From Candidatus Nitrospira nitrosa (lineage in GTDB: Bacteria; Nitrospirota; Nitrospiria; Nitrospirales; Nitrospiraceae), in NCBI RefSeq assembly GCF_001458735.1, contig NZ_CZQA01000001.1, positions 1,364,001-1,428,000 of the forward strand: a stretch of DNA of 64,000 bases, read 5' to 3'. Positions 26,598-48,985 of this stretch are shown in pieces. The notes beneath the pieces were generated by a model. The model did no database searches and was not told the DNA's origin. It saw nothing but the letters and a program-made list of their open reading frames with translations. The first letter of the stretch is position 1; each line of letters starts with the position of its first letter. A program made the translations under genes and the position numbers.

Positions 26598-27515
26598 TCA
26601 ATGAAACGCGCGCTGGTGGGTTGAGAGAAGATTTGCGAGACGGGTGTGAAGTGCTCCGAGATCATCAAGCAGCTCGATGCTTGTATCCTCCAAGAAGTGC
26701 TTTATTGCACAGGCCCCCTGACCACCCACGGCGACAGGCCAGCGTTGAGAGAGCGTTCGTAAGCCATGGAGCAAGTGATGTACTCCTCCCTCTGGTTTTG
26801 TTTCAGTTACGGACAAGAGAATGAGGTCAGGACGCACGCGTTCGCATAGCGTCTCCAAATCCGCCAGCGGGAGATTGGGGCCTAGGTAGTACACATGGCA
26901 GCCGCGAGCGGCAGCGAGGTAGGTGGCGGCCTGCGCGCCGATTTCATGATACTCGCCTTCGGGACAAGCCACTACTACGCGGGGGCCAAACTCATTAACC
27001 GGCAGTTGGTTCATCACAGAGAATAATTTCTGCTGGATGACCTTCGTCACGTAATGTTCTACCGCGATATTCACCCGTCCTTCATGCCACAGTTCTCCCA
27101 CTCGTCGCTGTAGGGGGAGAAGAATCCGCTGTACGGCCTCTTCGAACGGGATTACCGCGATCGCTGCGTTCAGTTGCTGTTCAAATCGACTTTTATCAAG
27201 CGGATCAAGGCGAGAGATCAGCTCATCGAGCAGCGAGCGGTGAGGGACAAGCTCCTGCTGTTTTGGGATTGCACTGACGTGCATTCGCTGAAGGAGCGAG
27301 TCTCGTCCCTCCATCGCAAGCCCGCCGATTGTCTGACCGCGATCCAACTCCTCTTTCAGGAAACGGAAGAGAGAAACGTCCTCATCGGTGTATTCTCGAT
27401 AGCGATTGGCGCTTCGTGAAGGTTTGACGAGGCTATACCTCCGTTCCCAAACCCTGATCACATCCTTCGAAAGTCCCGTGAGTTTCGCAACTCTATGAAT
27501 TCTATGTTTATTCAT
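26598..27515 (-). CDS. CarH/LitR-type MerR regulator with B12-binding photoreceptor domain
   Basis: 305 residues. Residues 1-75: MerR winged helix (RVAKLTGLSKDVIRVWERRY, then NRYREYTDEDVSLFRFL). Residues about 90-170: helical bundle with W143-x9-E153-H154, the light-sensing motif of CarH. Residues about 178-300: cobalamin domain with E188-Y-H190-E-I-G193 (ExHxxG), His190 being the expected lower ligand, and LSVTET. All key positions are present, so adenosylcobalamin-dependent, light-released repression is likely by family knowledge. Its own promoter carries the tandem operators, so it probably represses itself and the divergent cassette. Confidence 0.92.
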   Translation of the reverse strand: MNKHRIHRVAKLTGLSKDVIRVWERRYSLVKPSRSANRYREYTDEDVSLFRFLKEELDRGQTIGGLAMEGRDSLLQRMHVSAIPKQQELVPHRSLLDELISRLDPLDKSRFEQQLNAAIAVIPFEEAVQRILLPLQRRVGELWHEGRVNIAVEHYVTKVIQQKLFSVMNQLPVNEFGPRVVVACPEGEYHEIGAQAATYLAAARGCHVYYLGPNLPLADLETLCERVRPDLILLSVTETKPEGGVHHLLHGLRTLSQRWPVAVGGQGACAIKHFLEDTSIELLDDLGALHTRLANLLSTHQRAFH

Positions 27516-27525
27516 ATCGATTCAT

Positions 27526-27554
27526 AATTTAGATCACTGTCCAATGTTTGTCAA
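27526..27554 (-). promoter_or_regulatory. Promoter and operator of the CarH-type gene
   Basis: Read on the minus strand: TTGACA (27554-27549), 17 bp, TAAATT (27531-27526), about 11 bp before the ATG. The -35 is directly followed by a second operator half, TGGACA, with an 11-bp spacing (TTGACAAACATTGGACA). Autoregulation is inferred from the shared motif. Confidence 0.7.
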
Positions 27555-27982: not shown

Positions 27983-28935
27983 ATGCGGAGACCAGCGCTC
28001 AGACAATTAGCCGTGGGGGTCGTCCTTACGGCCGGGACGATCACTTTGGCCACAGCCGCCGACCTACCGACCAGCGACAAGGATATGGTGCTCATCCCGA
28101 AGGGCGAGTTCACCATGGGGAGCAGCGAACATGCGGATGAAGCCAAGCATCAGGTCGTCCTCGACGCCTATCTCATCGACAAGTATGAAGCCTCCAATGC
28201 CCGGTACAAAGAGTTTATGAAGGCCACCAGTCATCCCGCCCCCGCCTATTGGGACGATCCCCGTCTGAGTAAGCCCACCCAGCCGGTCGTCGGCGTCAGC
28301 TGGACCGACGCCCATGCCTTCTGCAAGTGGGACGGCAAGCGCCTGCCCACGGAGGCCGAGTGGGAACATGCGGCCAAAGGCCCCGACGGGGACAATCACT
28401 ATCCCTGGGGCCACAAGCTGGACCCGAAGAAAGCCAACTATGGCCAGAACGTGGGCCGTACGATGCCGGTCGATTCATATCCGGAAGGGGTGAGCGGGTT
28501 TGGGGTGTACAACATGGCCGGCAACGTCTTCGAGTGGGTCGAGGATTGGTATGACCTGACCTACTACAAGGACAGTCCGGCGCTCAATCCCCGCGGGGCG
28601 GAGAAGGGCTACAACTTCGCCAATCAAGGGCCTGTGAAGGTCCTGCGGGGCGGGTCGTGGCTGGCCCCGGAGACCTCCCTGCATACGAGCCATCGCTTCT
28701 GGAATCAGCCGGACAACAACTCCTATGGGGTCGGATTGGGGTTCCGCTGTGCGAAGTCGGTCGTAAGCATCTCGGACGAAGCGGTGCAATCGGGCCGGGA
28801 GGCCTTCATCCAGGCGCTCGTCGCGATGGGGGCGGAAAAGCATGCCGAAGCCCTCGCGGCCATCGACAAGGCCTTGGCGGCTGATCCCGGCAACCCGGAA
28901 TATCTGGCCACCAAAGAACTCATCAATAAAAGTCT
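27983..28935 (+). repeat. 953-bp duplicated gene body, copy 1
   Basis: No difference was found on visual comparison with 35069-36021 (offset 7086 bp). Identity begins exactly at the ATG and stops a few codons before the stop; flanks differ on both sides. It covers almost only the coding region. Confidence 0.9.
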
Positions 28936-28948
28936 GAAGAAAAAATAG
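27983..28948 (+). CDS. Periplasmic SUMF1-fold protein, copy 1
   Basis: 321 residues with signal peptide (VGVVLTAGTITLATAAD). Residues about 33-258 form a formylglycine-generating-enzyme (SUMF1) fold: MVLIPKGEFTMGS, KRLPTEAEWEHAAKG, GNVFEWVEDWY, LRGGSWLAPE, GFRCAKS. The paired cysteines that catalyse formylglycine formation, normally right after the GGSW/Y motif, are absent, so it is not a classical FGE. Residues about 265-321 look like one TPR-like helical pair. An exact gene-body duplicate is at 35069. Start has GGAGGG 5 nt upstream. Confidence 0.88.
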   Translation: MRRPALRQLAVGVVLTAGTITLATAADLPTSDKDMVLIPKGEFTMGSSEHADEAKHQVVLDAYLIDKYEASNARYKEFMKATSHPAPAYWDDPRLSKPTQPVVGVSWTDAHAFCKWDGKRLPTEAEWEHAAKGPDGDNHYPWGHKLDPKKANYGQNVGRTMPVDSYPEGVSGFGVYNMAGNVFEWVEDWYDLTYYKDSPALNPRGAEKGYNFANQGPVKVLRGGSWLAPETSLHTSHRFWNQPDNNSYGVGLGFRCAKSVVSISDEAVQSGREAFIQALVAMGAEKHAEALAAIDKALAADPGNPEYLATKELINKSLKKK

Positions 28949-34902: not shown

Positions 34903-34919
34903 TGTTCAATGTTTGTCAA
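34903..34919 (-). promoter_or_regulatory. Operator of the decayed regulator
   Basis: Read on the minus strand: TTGACAAACATTGAACA, nearly the same as the 27538-27554 site, with the two halves again 11 bp apart. A degenerate -10 (TATGAT) follows. It now controls only a pseudogene. Confidence 0.65.
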
Positions 34920-34938: not shown

Positions 34939-34997
34939 TTGACAGATTGGACATATTTGCTTATACGGTAGACATACATTGGACACACAGTGGACAT
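34939..34997 (+). promoter_or_regulatory. Promoter with tandem CarH-like operators, second cassette
   Basis: TTGACA (34939-34944), 17 bp, TATACG (34962-34967). ACA cores lie at 34942, 34951, 34972, 34983 and 34994, the last three exactly 11 bp apart (TAGACATACATTGGACACAC and onwards). This is the cleanest operator array of the window. Confidence 0.75.
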
Positions 34998-35068: not shown

Positions 35069-36021
35069 ATGCGGAGACCAGCGCTCAGACAATTAGCCGT
35101 GGGGGTCGTCCTTACGGCCGGGACGATCACTTTGGCCACAGCCGCCGACCTACCGACCAGCGACAAGGATATGGTGCTCATCCCGAAGGGCGAGTTCACC
35201 ATGGGGAGCAGCGAACATGCGGATGAAGCCAAGCATCAGGTCGTCCTCGACGCCTATCTCATCGACAAGTATGAAGCCTCCAATGCCCGGTACAAAGAGT
35301 TTATGAAGGCCACCAGTCATCCCGCCCCCGCCTATTGGGACGATCCCCGTCTGAGTAAGCCCACCCAGCCGGTCGTCGGCGTCAGCTGGACCGACGCCCA
35401 TGCCTTCTGCAAGTGGGACGGCAAGCGCCTGCCCACGGAGGCCGAGTGGGAACATGCGGCCAAAGGCCCCGACGGGGACAATCACTATCCCTGGGGCCAC
35501 AAGCTGGACCCGAAGAAAGCCAACTATGGCCAGAACGTGGGCCGTACGATGCCGGTCGATTCATATCCGGAAGGGGTGAGCGGGTTTGGGGTGTACAACA
35601 TGGCCGGCAACGTCTTCGAGTGGGTCGAGGATTGGTATGACCTGACCTACTACAAGGACAGTCCGGCGCTCAATCCCCGCGGGGCGGAGAAGGGCTACAA
35701 CTTCGCCAATCAAGGGCCTGTGAAGGTCCTGCGGGGCGGGTCGTGGCTGGCCCCGGAGACCTCCCTGCATACGAGCCATCGCTTCTGGAATCAGCCGGAC
35801 AACAACTCCTATGGGGTCGGATTGGGGTTCCGCTGTGCGAAGTCGGTCGTAAGCATCTCGGACGAAGCGGTGCAATCGGGCCGGGAGGCCTTCATCCAGG
35901 CGCTCGTCGCGATGGGGGCGGAAAAGCATGCCGAAGCCCTCGCGGCCATCGACAAGGCCTTGGCGGCTGATCCCGGCAACCCGGAATATCTGGCCACCAA
36001 AGAACTCATCAATAAAAGTCT
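35069..36021 (+). repeat. 953-bp duplicated gene body, copy 2
   Basis: Partner of 27983-28935. Both copies lie on the same strand 7086 bp apart, so recombination between them would delete the SUMF1, cytochrome, SmbP and DUF393 genes. Confidence 0.9.
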
Positions 36022-36034
36022 CAGCAAAAAGTAG
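35069..36034 (+). CDS. Periplasmic SUMF1-fold protein, copy 2
   Basis: Same 321-residue protein as at 27983 except for the end (LSKK against LKKK). Signal peptide, SUMF1 fold without FGE cysteines, and a TPR-like tail. Preceded by AAGGGGG and the operator array at 34939, and followed after about 50 bp by the SDR fusion gene instead of the other SUMF1 genes. Confidence 0.88.
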   Translation: MRRPALRQLAVGVVLTAGTITLATAADLPTSDKDMVLIPKGEFTMGSSEHADEAKHQVVLDAYLIDKYEASNARYKEFMKATSHPAPAYWDDPRLSKPTQPVVGVSWTDAHAFCKWDGKRLPTEAEWEHAAKGPDGDNHYPWGHKLDPKKANYGQNVGRTMPVDSYPEGVSGFGVYNMAGNVFEWVEDWYDLTYYKDSPALNPRGAEKGYNFANQGPVKVLRGGSWLAPETSLHTSHRFWNQPDNNSYGVGLGFRCAKSVVSISDEAVQSGREAFIQALVAMGAEKHAEALAAIDKALAADPGNPEYLATKELINKSLSKK

Positions 36035-46424: not shown

Positions 46425-47045
46425 TTAGCTTGCCGCCAAGGCTTTTTCGAGATCGGCCAGAATGGTGGGCGACAAGGGATTCATTCCTGGGTCATATTTC
46501 CCGATGACGTTGCCTGAGCGATCGACCAAGTATTTTTGAAAGTTCCACGTCACACGGCCAGGGAAGGCGCTTTGCTCGGTCAGGTAGCGGTAGAGTGGAT
46601 GTTTATCTTTCCCAACCACGCTGATTTTTGAGAACAGGGGGAAACTGACGCTGTATCGTGTGTAGCAGAATCCTTTGATTTCTTGATTAGTCCCCGGCTC
46701 CTGCTGCCCAAAATCATTCGCCGGAAATGCGAGGACTTCGAACCCCCGCTCCTGATATCGCTCATACATTTCCTGGAGGCCGGCGTACTGCGGCGTATTG
46801 CCGCACATGCTCGCGGTATTCACGATGAGCAGCACCTTACCCTTGAATGTCTTGAGATCGACGGGTTGGCCATCAATGTCCGGGAGGCGAAATCCATATA
46901 GAGGTGCCATCGTGGCACCGGTGCGTGAGGGCGCAAGGGGTTGTTTCTCCAGTGCGTAGGTTTGCGAGGTGGACAGTGCGATGAATCCAAGTTCGAGCAG
47001 GACGAGGCCGGAGAGGGCAAAGAGAACTTTTGAGTAGATCGGCAT
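46425..47045 (-). CDS. Secreted glutathione-peroxidase-family protein
   Basis: About 206 residues from the ATG at 47045, with AGGAGG 8 nt upstream. A signal peptide or anchor (VLFALSGLVLLELGFIAL) precedes a GPx fold: GKVLLIVNTASMCGNTPQY with the peroxidatic Cys, FPANDFGQQEPGTNQEIKGFC and TWNFQKYLVDRSG. It reduces peroxides, probably with thioredoxin-like partners in the periplasm. Its promoter lies in the inverted operator at 47103-47144, so it belongs to the CarH-like regulon. Confidence 0.88.
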   Translation of the reverse strand: MPIYSKVLFALSGLVLLELGFIALSTSQTYALEKQPLAPSRTGATMAPLYGFRLPDIDGQPVDLKTFKGKVLLIVNTASMCGNTPQYAGLQEMYERYQERGFEVLAFPANDFGQQEPGTNQEIKGFCYTRYSVSFPLFSKISVVGKDKHPLYRYLTEQSAFPGRVTWNFQKYLVDRSGNVIGKYDPGMNPLSPTILADLEKALAAS

Positions 47046-47102: not shown

Positions 47103-47144
47103 TGTCCATGGTTTGTCAATTATAAACTTGACAAACCATGGACA
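47103..47144. promoter_or_regulatory. Perfect inverted repeat of CarH-like operators with divergent promoters
   Basis: TGTCCATGGTTTGTCAA (47103-47119) and TTGACAAACCATGGACA (47128-47144), 17-bp arms, 8-bp centre. In each direction the arm reads TTGACA-5 bp-TGGACA, the 11-bp operator spacing of the other sites. Leftward it is the -35 region of the glutathione peroxidase gene (TATCTT 18 bp on); rightward, TAGTAA follows after 17 bp and points to the 47463-amoC pair. Confidence 0.75.
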
Positions 47145-47372
47145 TCGTGATAGTAATACATCCAGACATTCCTCATTATGAAAACTGGTGTGGCTTAACT
47201 GACGAAATGCAGGGGGGGGGCCACCAAATGCTCTGGTGTCAGCAGTTATGCAATAGATTTCGATCTGCTCAGACGTCGCTATTACAAGAGCGTGATCGTC
47301 CGATTAATGAGACACCCAGAGCGATAGGTGAAGCGGGCTGCCACCGTAAAATAGATTCAGCTTGAACCCATG

Positions 47373-47394
47373 CTCATGAAGAATTCTTCATGAG
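47373..47394. promoter_or_regulatory. 22-bp perfect palindrome upstream of the amoC operon
   Basis: CTCATGAAGAA and its exact complement meet at 47383/47384. It lies about 70 bp before the start of the 47463 gene. The symmetry without loop suggests a dimeric protein site rather than an RNA hairpin. Confidence 0.55.
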
Positions 47395-47406
47395 AATCTA
47401 AGGGGG

Positions 47407-47434
47407 CCTTCATCTTGTGAAGGGTATGCTTCAC
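47407..47434 (+). promoter_or_regulatory. Competing hairpins in the leader
   Basis: CCTTCA (47407-47412) can pair with TGAAGG (47418-47423), while GTGAAG (47417-47422) can instead pair with CTTCAC (47429-47434). The two pairings exclude each other, as in attenuators. The stems are short, so the case is weak. The ribosome site AAGGAGGTG lies just after. Confidence 0.35.
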
Positions 47435-47462
47435 GAGTAGGTGTGGAAGGAGGTGAAAATCG

Positions 47463-48125
47463 ATGCTGACGATCTTCATTGCAATTGTTGCTCTGAGCAT
47501 TATCACCGCGATCATATATCGGCCGACCGTCACTCTTGTCCCCATCAAACTCAAACGAGTAACACAATTCCAAAAACTGTGTAGCGTACTCGTGGTTTTT
47601 CCACTGATGTCACCCGGTCTGGCTGGTGCGCATGGCAATGTGACTCTAGAGGAAGATGTTTGTGTTCAACGCGTCGGGGGGAATCTCGTCCATTTCAACG
47701 CCTATCAGCCGCAACATGCCGCAAAGGCTCAGTATTGTACCGACATCCCGGCTGAAGGGGACACCTTTCTCGTGCTGGATCTCGTCGATCCGATCCTGCG
47801 AAATCTCCCAATAGGAGTGCGGGTGATCAAGGGAATGAGTGAGGCCACAGAGGAGGCGACCGTTGCCTACTGGCCACCCAGGATCCATCCGGACGGAGTC
47901 CTACGAGGAGAAGCCAAATTAGCCAAGGGGCTCTATCGGGTAATCATCACGCCAGAAGGGTTCAGCCCCTCGTCGTATCTATTACGAGTCCAGCAGATTG
48001 ATTATGCAAATGTGGCAAAAACAGCGATTGGACCTTTGACCGTACTCCTGCTGCTCATCGTGATCGGCTATGAGGTCTCAAAATCAACGCGACTCAGAAG
48101 CTGGTGGGCTTCCAGTCGTGCCTAA
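47463..48125 (+). CDS. Membrane-anchored periplasmic protein next to amoC
   Basis: 220 residues. A hydrophobic N-terminus, then a signal-like stretch (FQKLCSVLVVFPLMSPGLAG) ending before AHGNVTLEEDVCVQRVGGN. The periplasmic domain carries two cysteines (67 and 92) that could form a disulfide and several histidines. One C-terminal membrane helix follows (GPLTVLLLLIVIGYEV) with a short basic tail. The layout resembles AmoD/AmoE/PmoD-type accessory proteins, but I cannot claim homology. 41 bp before amoC, in the same direction, with GGAGGTG upstream; so likely cotranscribed. Confidence 0.7.
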   Translation: MLTIFIAIVALSIITAIIYRPTVTLVPIKLKRVTQFQKLCSVLVVFPLMSPGLAGAHGNVTLEEDVCVQRVGGNLVHFNAYQPQHAAKAQYCTDIPAEGDTFLVLDLVDPILRNLPIGVRVIKGMSEATEEATVAYWPPRIHPDGVLRGEAKLAKGLYRVIITPEGFSPSSYLLRVQQIDYANVAKTAIGPLTVLLLLIVIGYEVSKSTRLRSWWASSRA

Positions 48126-48166: not shown

Positions 48167-48985
48167 ATGGCAGCATCAAGTGAGCGAGGGTATGACGTCT
48201 CGCAGTGGTACGATTCAAAGCCGGTGAAGATCGGCTGGTTTGCGATGTTGGCGATCGGGGTGTTTTGGGTCCTGTACCAGCGAACCTTCGGGTATTCGCA
48301 TGGGCTGGATTCCATGACCCCGGAGTTTGAGTCGGTGTGGATGGGGCTGTGGCGGTTTAACATTTTGGCCAACGCCATCTTCTTTGCCGTCTCGATCGGG
48401 TGGATCTGGGTGACGCGGGATCGGAACCTGACGAACCTGGACCCGAAGCTGGAGCTGAAGCGGTATTTTTACTGGATGGGCTGGTTGGTGTGCTACATCT
48501 GGGGCGTGTACTACGCGGGGAGCTACACGTTGGAGCAGGATGCGGCGTGGCATCAAGTGATCATCCGGGACACGAGCTTTACGGCGAGCCACATCGTGGC
48601 GTTCTACGGGACGTTCCCGCTGTACATTACGTGCGGCGTGTCGAGCTACCTGTATGCGCAGACGCGGTTGCCGCTGTATAGCCAAGCGACGTCATTCCCG
48701 TTGGTGGCGGCGGTGGTGGGGCCGATGTTCATTCTACCGAACGTGGGGCTCAACGAGTGGGGCCATGCGTTCTGGTTTGTGGATGAGCTGTTTGCGGCGC
48801 CGTTGCACTGGGGCTTTGTGACGTTGGGTTGGTGCGGGTTGTTCGGCGCAGCGGGCGGCGTGGCGGCGCAGATCGTGAGCCGGATGTCGAATCTGGCGGA
48901 CGTGATCTGGAACAACGCCCCGAAGAGCATCTTGGATCCGTTCCCGGCCCAGGTGCAGAGCGCCAGCGCCAAGAGCGTGTACTAA
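48167..48985 (+). CDS. amoC: Ammonia monooxygenase subunit C
   Basis: 272 residues, the usual length of bacterial AmoC. Six or so membrane helices. D125-x3-H129-x12-H142 (in [13 protein letters not shown] ... SH) and N196-x3-H200-x13-H214 (in GLNEWGHAF ... LHW) match in spacing the two copper sites of the homologous PmoC (Asp156/His160/His173 and Asn227/His231/His245). Also typical are [14 protein letters not shown] and [19 protein letters not shown]. AmoA and AmoB are not in the window; single amoC copies away from amoCAB occur in ammonia oxidisers. Codons are richer in GCG, GTG and TTG than those of the neighbours, and an AAGGAGG ribosome site precedes it. Confidence 0.95.

Follow-up and report, generated by a model that had tools for sequence, protein, structure and literature searches.

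The 64,000-nucleotide stretch of Candidatus Nitrospira nitrosa DNA that was analysed here (the window) carries a perfect inverted repeat between a peroxidase gene and one of the amoC copies of this genome. This raises the question of which regulator binds the repeat and which of the two neighbours it would control. An earlier interpretation (the sequence-only reading) had described the site as an inverted operator with divergent promoters and had placed amoC under the same regulator as the CarH-like sites. The locus contains the following features:

46425-47045, minus strand: gpx, glutathione peroxidase family (Pfam GSHPx, 2.9e-39), with an N-terminal signal-like segment
47090-47119, minus strand: candidate leftward promoter TTGACA-18-TATCTT, pointing to gpx, consensus match 10/12
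47103-47119, minus strand: left arm, two 11-bp CarH-type repeats (TTGACA, TGGACA) reading leftward
47128-47144, plus strand: right arm, two 11-bp CarH-type repeats (TTGACA, TGGACA) reading rightward
47128-47156, plus strand: candidate rightward promoter TTGACA-17-TAGTAA with an extended TG at 47148-47149, pointing to amoD-amoC
47370-47455, plus strand: conserved amoD-amoC leader of about 86 bp, present before amoD with or without gpx and operator
47463-48125, plus strand: amoD/E-like gene (220 aa), about 60% identical to genes in the amo clusters of the genus
48167-48985, plus strand: amoC, one of four copies in the genome, which are 99-100% identical

The element at 47103-47144 (TGTCCATGGTTTGTCAA-TTATAAAC-TTGACAAACCATGGACA, arm-spacer-arm) is a perfect inverted repeat of 17 + 8 + 17 bp, and its arms are, as previously claimed, exact complements (100%) lying 8 nt apart. 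With spacers of up to 14 nt allowed, the window contains no second inverted repeat of 17 perfectly paired bp, the chance expectation being about 6e-5. This expectation and the conservation of the element in relatives rule out a chance palindrome. Each arm comprises two TnnACA repeats spaced by 11 bp, with TTGACA doubling as the -35 hexamer. The full pattern TTGACA-N5-TGGACA occurs three times without mismatch in the window, namely in both arms and at 27538-27554 upstream of a carH gene, which bears out the statement that each direction reads as at a CarH-like site. If one mismatch is allowed, the window contains six matches versus 0.43 expected. Elsewhere in the whole genome only one more exact copy exists (C9:108548); as it is located within a coding gene, it was ruled out as a promoter site.

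In studied CarH operators, repeats of 11 bp with TnnACA cover the -35 or -10 hexamer, three in tandem in Thermus and four in Bacillus megaterium (PMC9304148, PMC8156234). The element resembles them in its 11-bp TnnACA repeats, which overlap the -35 in both arms. Unlike the studied operators, in which three or four repeats or pseudorepeats follow one another in the same direction and which serve mainly carotenoid genes, it has two repeats per direction, inverted and 8 bp apart, and is placed between the predicted promoters of gpx and amoD-amoC. Regulator and operator repeats are known; the target and the inverted 2+2 layout are new. The element at 47103-47144 is very likely a CarH operator.

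The candidate regulator is encoded 20 kb from the operator:

26598-27515, minus strand: carH, with MerR DNA-binding and B12-binding domains and the motifs Wx9EH and ExHxxG
27538-27554, minus strand: 17-mer TTGACAAACATTGGACA upstream of carH, the same as the arm sequence

The carH product matches the Pfam families MerR_1, B12-binding_2 and B12-binding in the MerR-then-B12 order, and its translation includes WHEGRVNIAVEH (Wx9EH) and EYHEIG (ExHxxG-type), the two motifs that define CarH (PMC8156234). Residues 5-269 are similar to CarH of Thermus thermophilus (5C8D, E 5e-31), with the motif aligned to the Thermus motif. In architecture and in both motifs the protein is like the AdoCbl-dependent photoreceptor repressors of T. 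thermophilus, B. megaterium and myxobacteria. Its best NCBIfam match is the CarH equivalog NF052513, at 139 bits and thus below the cut-off of 400; as this model is narrow, the score limits the name "equivalog" and not the family-level match. In the literature searched, no description of CarH in Nitrospira was found. A search for the 17-mer around carH orthologues (loci of about 2.6-3.9 kb) revealed that 28 of the 30 orthologues in the genus have exactly one copy (up to one mismatch) upstream and close to the carH start. As the 17-mer lies just upstream of these 28 genes, CarH is the likely binder of 47103-47144, and this position ties the site to the predicted regulator more firmly than the resemblance to known operators does. 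The gene occurs in 24 of 27 genomes with a gpx of this type versus 30 of 52 others (p 0.005, uncorrected for relatedness). Some genomes contain two carH-like genes, and in genome G068 (RSF12) the element is present with no carH detected.

CarH-type repeats also precede both copies of a duplicated gene in the window, which encodes near-identical FGE-sulfatase-domain proteins (27983-28948 and 35069-36034). Near the second copy lie:

34903-34919, minus strand: further CarH-type half-site
34969-34996, plus strand: 11-bp repeats, three in tandem, before the second copy of the FGE-sulfatase gene

Both -10-like hexamers that had been proposed for the element could be recognised. The leftward one belongs to a promoter whose spacing in the window's clade is usually TTGACA-18-TAnnnT. 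The rightward one is weak by hexamer consensus, and the promoter scan did not list the rightward promoter, but 26 of 28 loci share TTGACA-17 with TG-n-TA at a fixed distance (related sequences, so that the counts are not independent). In the window's clade, the 29-bp stretch that spans the rightward -35 and -10 reaches a conservation of 0.823, narrowly above the maximum of 0.816 for other 29-mers up to the amoD leader. The idea of divergent promoters at a CarH-type operator is supported, since relatives conserve both arms as well as both -10 hexamers and carH itself has the 17-mer in front of it.

On the left side, the element sits 55-100 bp upstream of most gpx orthologues of this type, with one arm sometimes being degenerate. 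In relatives, gpx always flanks one side of the element, and either a sigma gene or amoD-amoC is found on the other; the nearest relative by gpx is UW-LDO-01, a Ca. Nitrospira nitrosa strain. The operator site travels with gpx, and amoD-amoC copies without gpx are without the site. It is very likely that gpx is a target of the putative CarH operator.

On the right side, the amoD/E-like gene and amoC follow on the plus strand, which confirms the placement of the operator between a peroxidase and the amoC operon. This amoC lies outside the amoCAB cluster, with no adjoining amoA or amoB in the window, and the amoD/E-like gene has no match in Pfam or NCBIfam. The start codon of amoD is 318 bp from the operator in this species and in the window's clade. 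The leader that intervenes contains a palindrome of 20 bp (47374-47393) and repeats spaced by 11 bp at 47386, 47397 and 47408 (CTTCAT/TCTAAG/CTTCAT), which end 11 bp before a TATGCT at 47425-47430. Within the clade its mean identity is 0.81 versus 0.62 for the preceding interval. The layout of 47370-47455 presumably resembles that of OmpR/PhoB-type activator-driven promoters, and the leader probably holds the own promoter of amoD-amoC. As a genome-wide ammonia-oxidation motif the leader is not supported, since at up to three mismatches only the window site and one match with three mismatches were found. An operator common to all amoC copies is ruled out as well, as the other three copies in the genome lack the 17-mer. 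Since amoD copies that have no CarH site share this leader, the operator would contribute a further, light-derepressed input, and CarH is probably one input to amoD-amoC rather than its sole control.

Comparison with relatives shows what else the rightward promoter may serve. In six loci (L021, L033, L035, L036, L038 and L082) an RpoD-like sigma gene lies opposite gpx and faces the rightward promoter; under a CarH-type operator it would possibly act as a light-controlled sigma factor. The one counterpart in the window's genome, with 54% identity, is a more distant sigma gene at a different location, and in the window's clade the promoter faces amoD-amoC. As the promoter faces a sigma gene in relatives, it either predates the amoC link or is independent of it. 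In other loci amoD is positioned directly at the operator promoters. In L028 the distance from the rightward -10 to the amoD start codon is 41 bp, which hold a ribosome-binding site but no leader. In L082/L217, gpx is followed on its own strand by amoD after about 64 bp; the sigma gene is divergent, and the contig also carries carH. These two arrangements partly support the amoC link. The tree suggests that amoD-amoC was recruited to the operator independently more than once, with a single clade not being rejected (p-AU 0.053 and 0.068). The earlier claim that amoC is under the same regulator stands as plausible for this species in view of the L028 junction and the L082/L217 tandem, but not in the sense of sole control, given the conserved leader within the 318-bp gap.

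The alternative that fares best is that the operator serves only gpx in this species, the rightward promoter being a relic of an ancestral gpx-sigma layout and amoD-amoC being driven solely by its leader. It would fit with the conservation of the leader both with and without the operator, with the sigma gene that several relatives have on the rightward side and that is absent from this genome, and with genome G075, whose amoD and leader occur without gpx and operator. Yet no other 29-mer of the interval is as well conserved in the amoD-linked clade as the rightward -35 to -10, although the margin is narrow, the left arm is deleted in L014 with the rightward half left intact, and in L028 and L082/L217 amoD lies directly under the operator promoters. 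Restriction of the operator to gpx is rather unlikely.

The preferred reading, which is somewhat favoured by the sequence comparisons, is a CarH operator between two divergent sigma-70-type promoters that drives gpx and adds a light input to amoD-amoC. Light would break AdoCbl, CarH would release the operator and both promoters would fire. The leftward transcript would yield the glutathione peroxidase, and the rightward one would run about 300 nt into amoD-amoC, on top of the leader promoter of the pair. For this species we infer CarH binding, the light response and the read-through; the read-through itself is slightly favoured. The purpose would be the replacement of AMO subunits lost to light damage. 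Counting against the amoC link are the conserved leader of the pair, the lack of the site in gpx-less amoD-amoC copies and in the other three amoC copies, the sigma gene that the rightward promoter faces in relatives and the poor consensus match of the rightward -10. The model as a whole has against it the inverted 2+2 layout in place of three or four tandem repeats, the lost left arm in L014 and the lack of a detected carH in G068.

It is improbable that a regulator of the same family binds the site in response to a signal other than light, for example the AdoCbl level or the redox state, or that a second MerR-type protein does so. Other signals are used within the family by the B12-independent CarA and the LOV-coupled class II LitR; the second carH-like gene of some genomes and the NCBIfam equivalog score far under its cut-off would also fit. 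However, both CarH photoreceptor motifs are present, and photolyase-family and other light-associated genes lie in the neighbourhood. That the rightward promoter yields a short RNA which stops before amoD-amoC is very improbable. In its favour is the interval of approximately 300 nt, which shows no clear gene and has a mean identity of 0.62 in the clade; against it, no terminator-like site was found between operator and amoD, and the interval is shorter or missing in L028, L031 and L032.

A light input to an extra amoC would be of physiological relevance. Light inactivates AMO, which then has to be synthesised again, and the comammox organism Nitrospira inopinata is strongly photoinhibited (PMC9797979). 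All comammox genomes surveyed contain extra amoC outside amoCAB, and singleton amoC copies of ammonia-oxidising bacteria have been linked to stress (PMC6311188); an established control of the comammox extra amoC was not found in the literature searched. The singleton amoC3 of Nitrosomonas europaea is similar in being a non-operonal amoC tied to the stress response (PMC6311188). It differs in that control by a heat-shock-type sigma factor has been reported, whereas here an amoD/E-like gene precedes amoC and the candidate regulator is a light-sensing repressor. The class II LitR/PplR regulons of Pseudomonas likewise comprise a light-regulated set, in which a CarH/LitR-family repressor controls genes that include members of the photolyase family (PMC9758184). 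There, in contrast, the sites read TGTACA-N12-TGTACA, a LOV protein senses the light and no amo genes are included. A CarH operator before one extra amoC would provide a testable link from light sensing to ammonia oxidation. If true, a core energy enzyme would join the carotenoid genes as a target of CarH, and the spare AMO subunit of a nitrifier would be light-induced. More tentatively, a B12 photoreceptor repressor might control a spare AMO module in comammox Nitrospira in more than one arrangement, replacing AMO parts lost to light, with a light-controlled sigma factor holding the place in other species of the genus.

A few relatives deviate from these arrangements. In L056 (G075), amoD and its leader directly follow an amine-oxidase-like gene, with gpx and operator being absent. 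L030 (G081) has kept the operator and a remnant of the leader, and a different gene replaces amoD. In the sand-filter and groundwater relatives L022 and L024-L027, amoD is decayed behind the rightward promoter; their amoC is truncated (L022, L025), masked in part, or incomplete because the contig ends. The decayed copy in these Nitrospira looks as if it were being lost in dark habitats.
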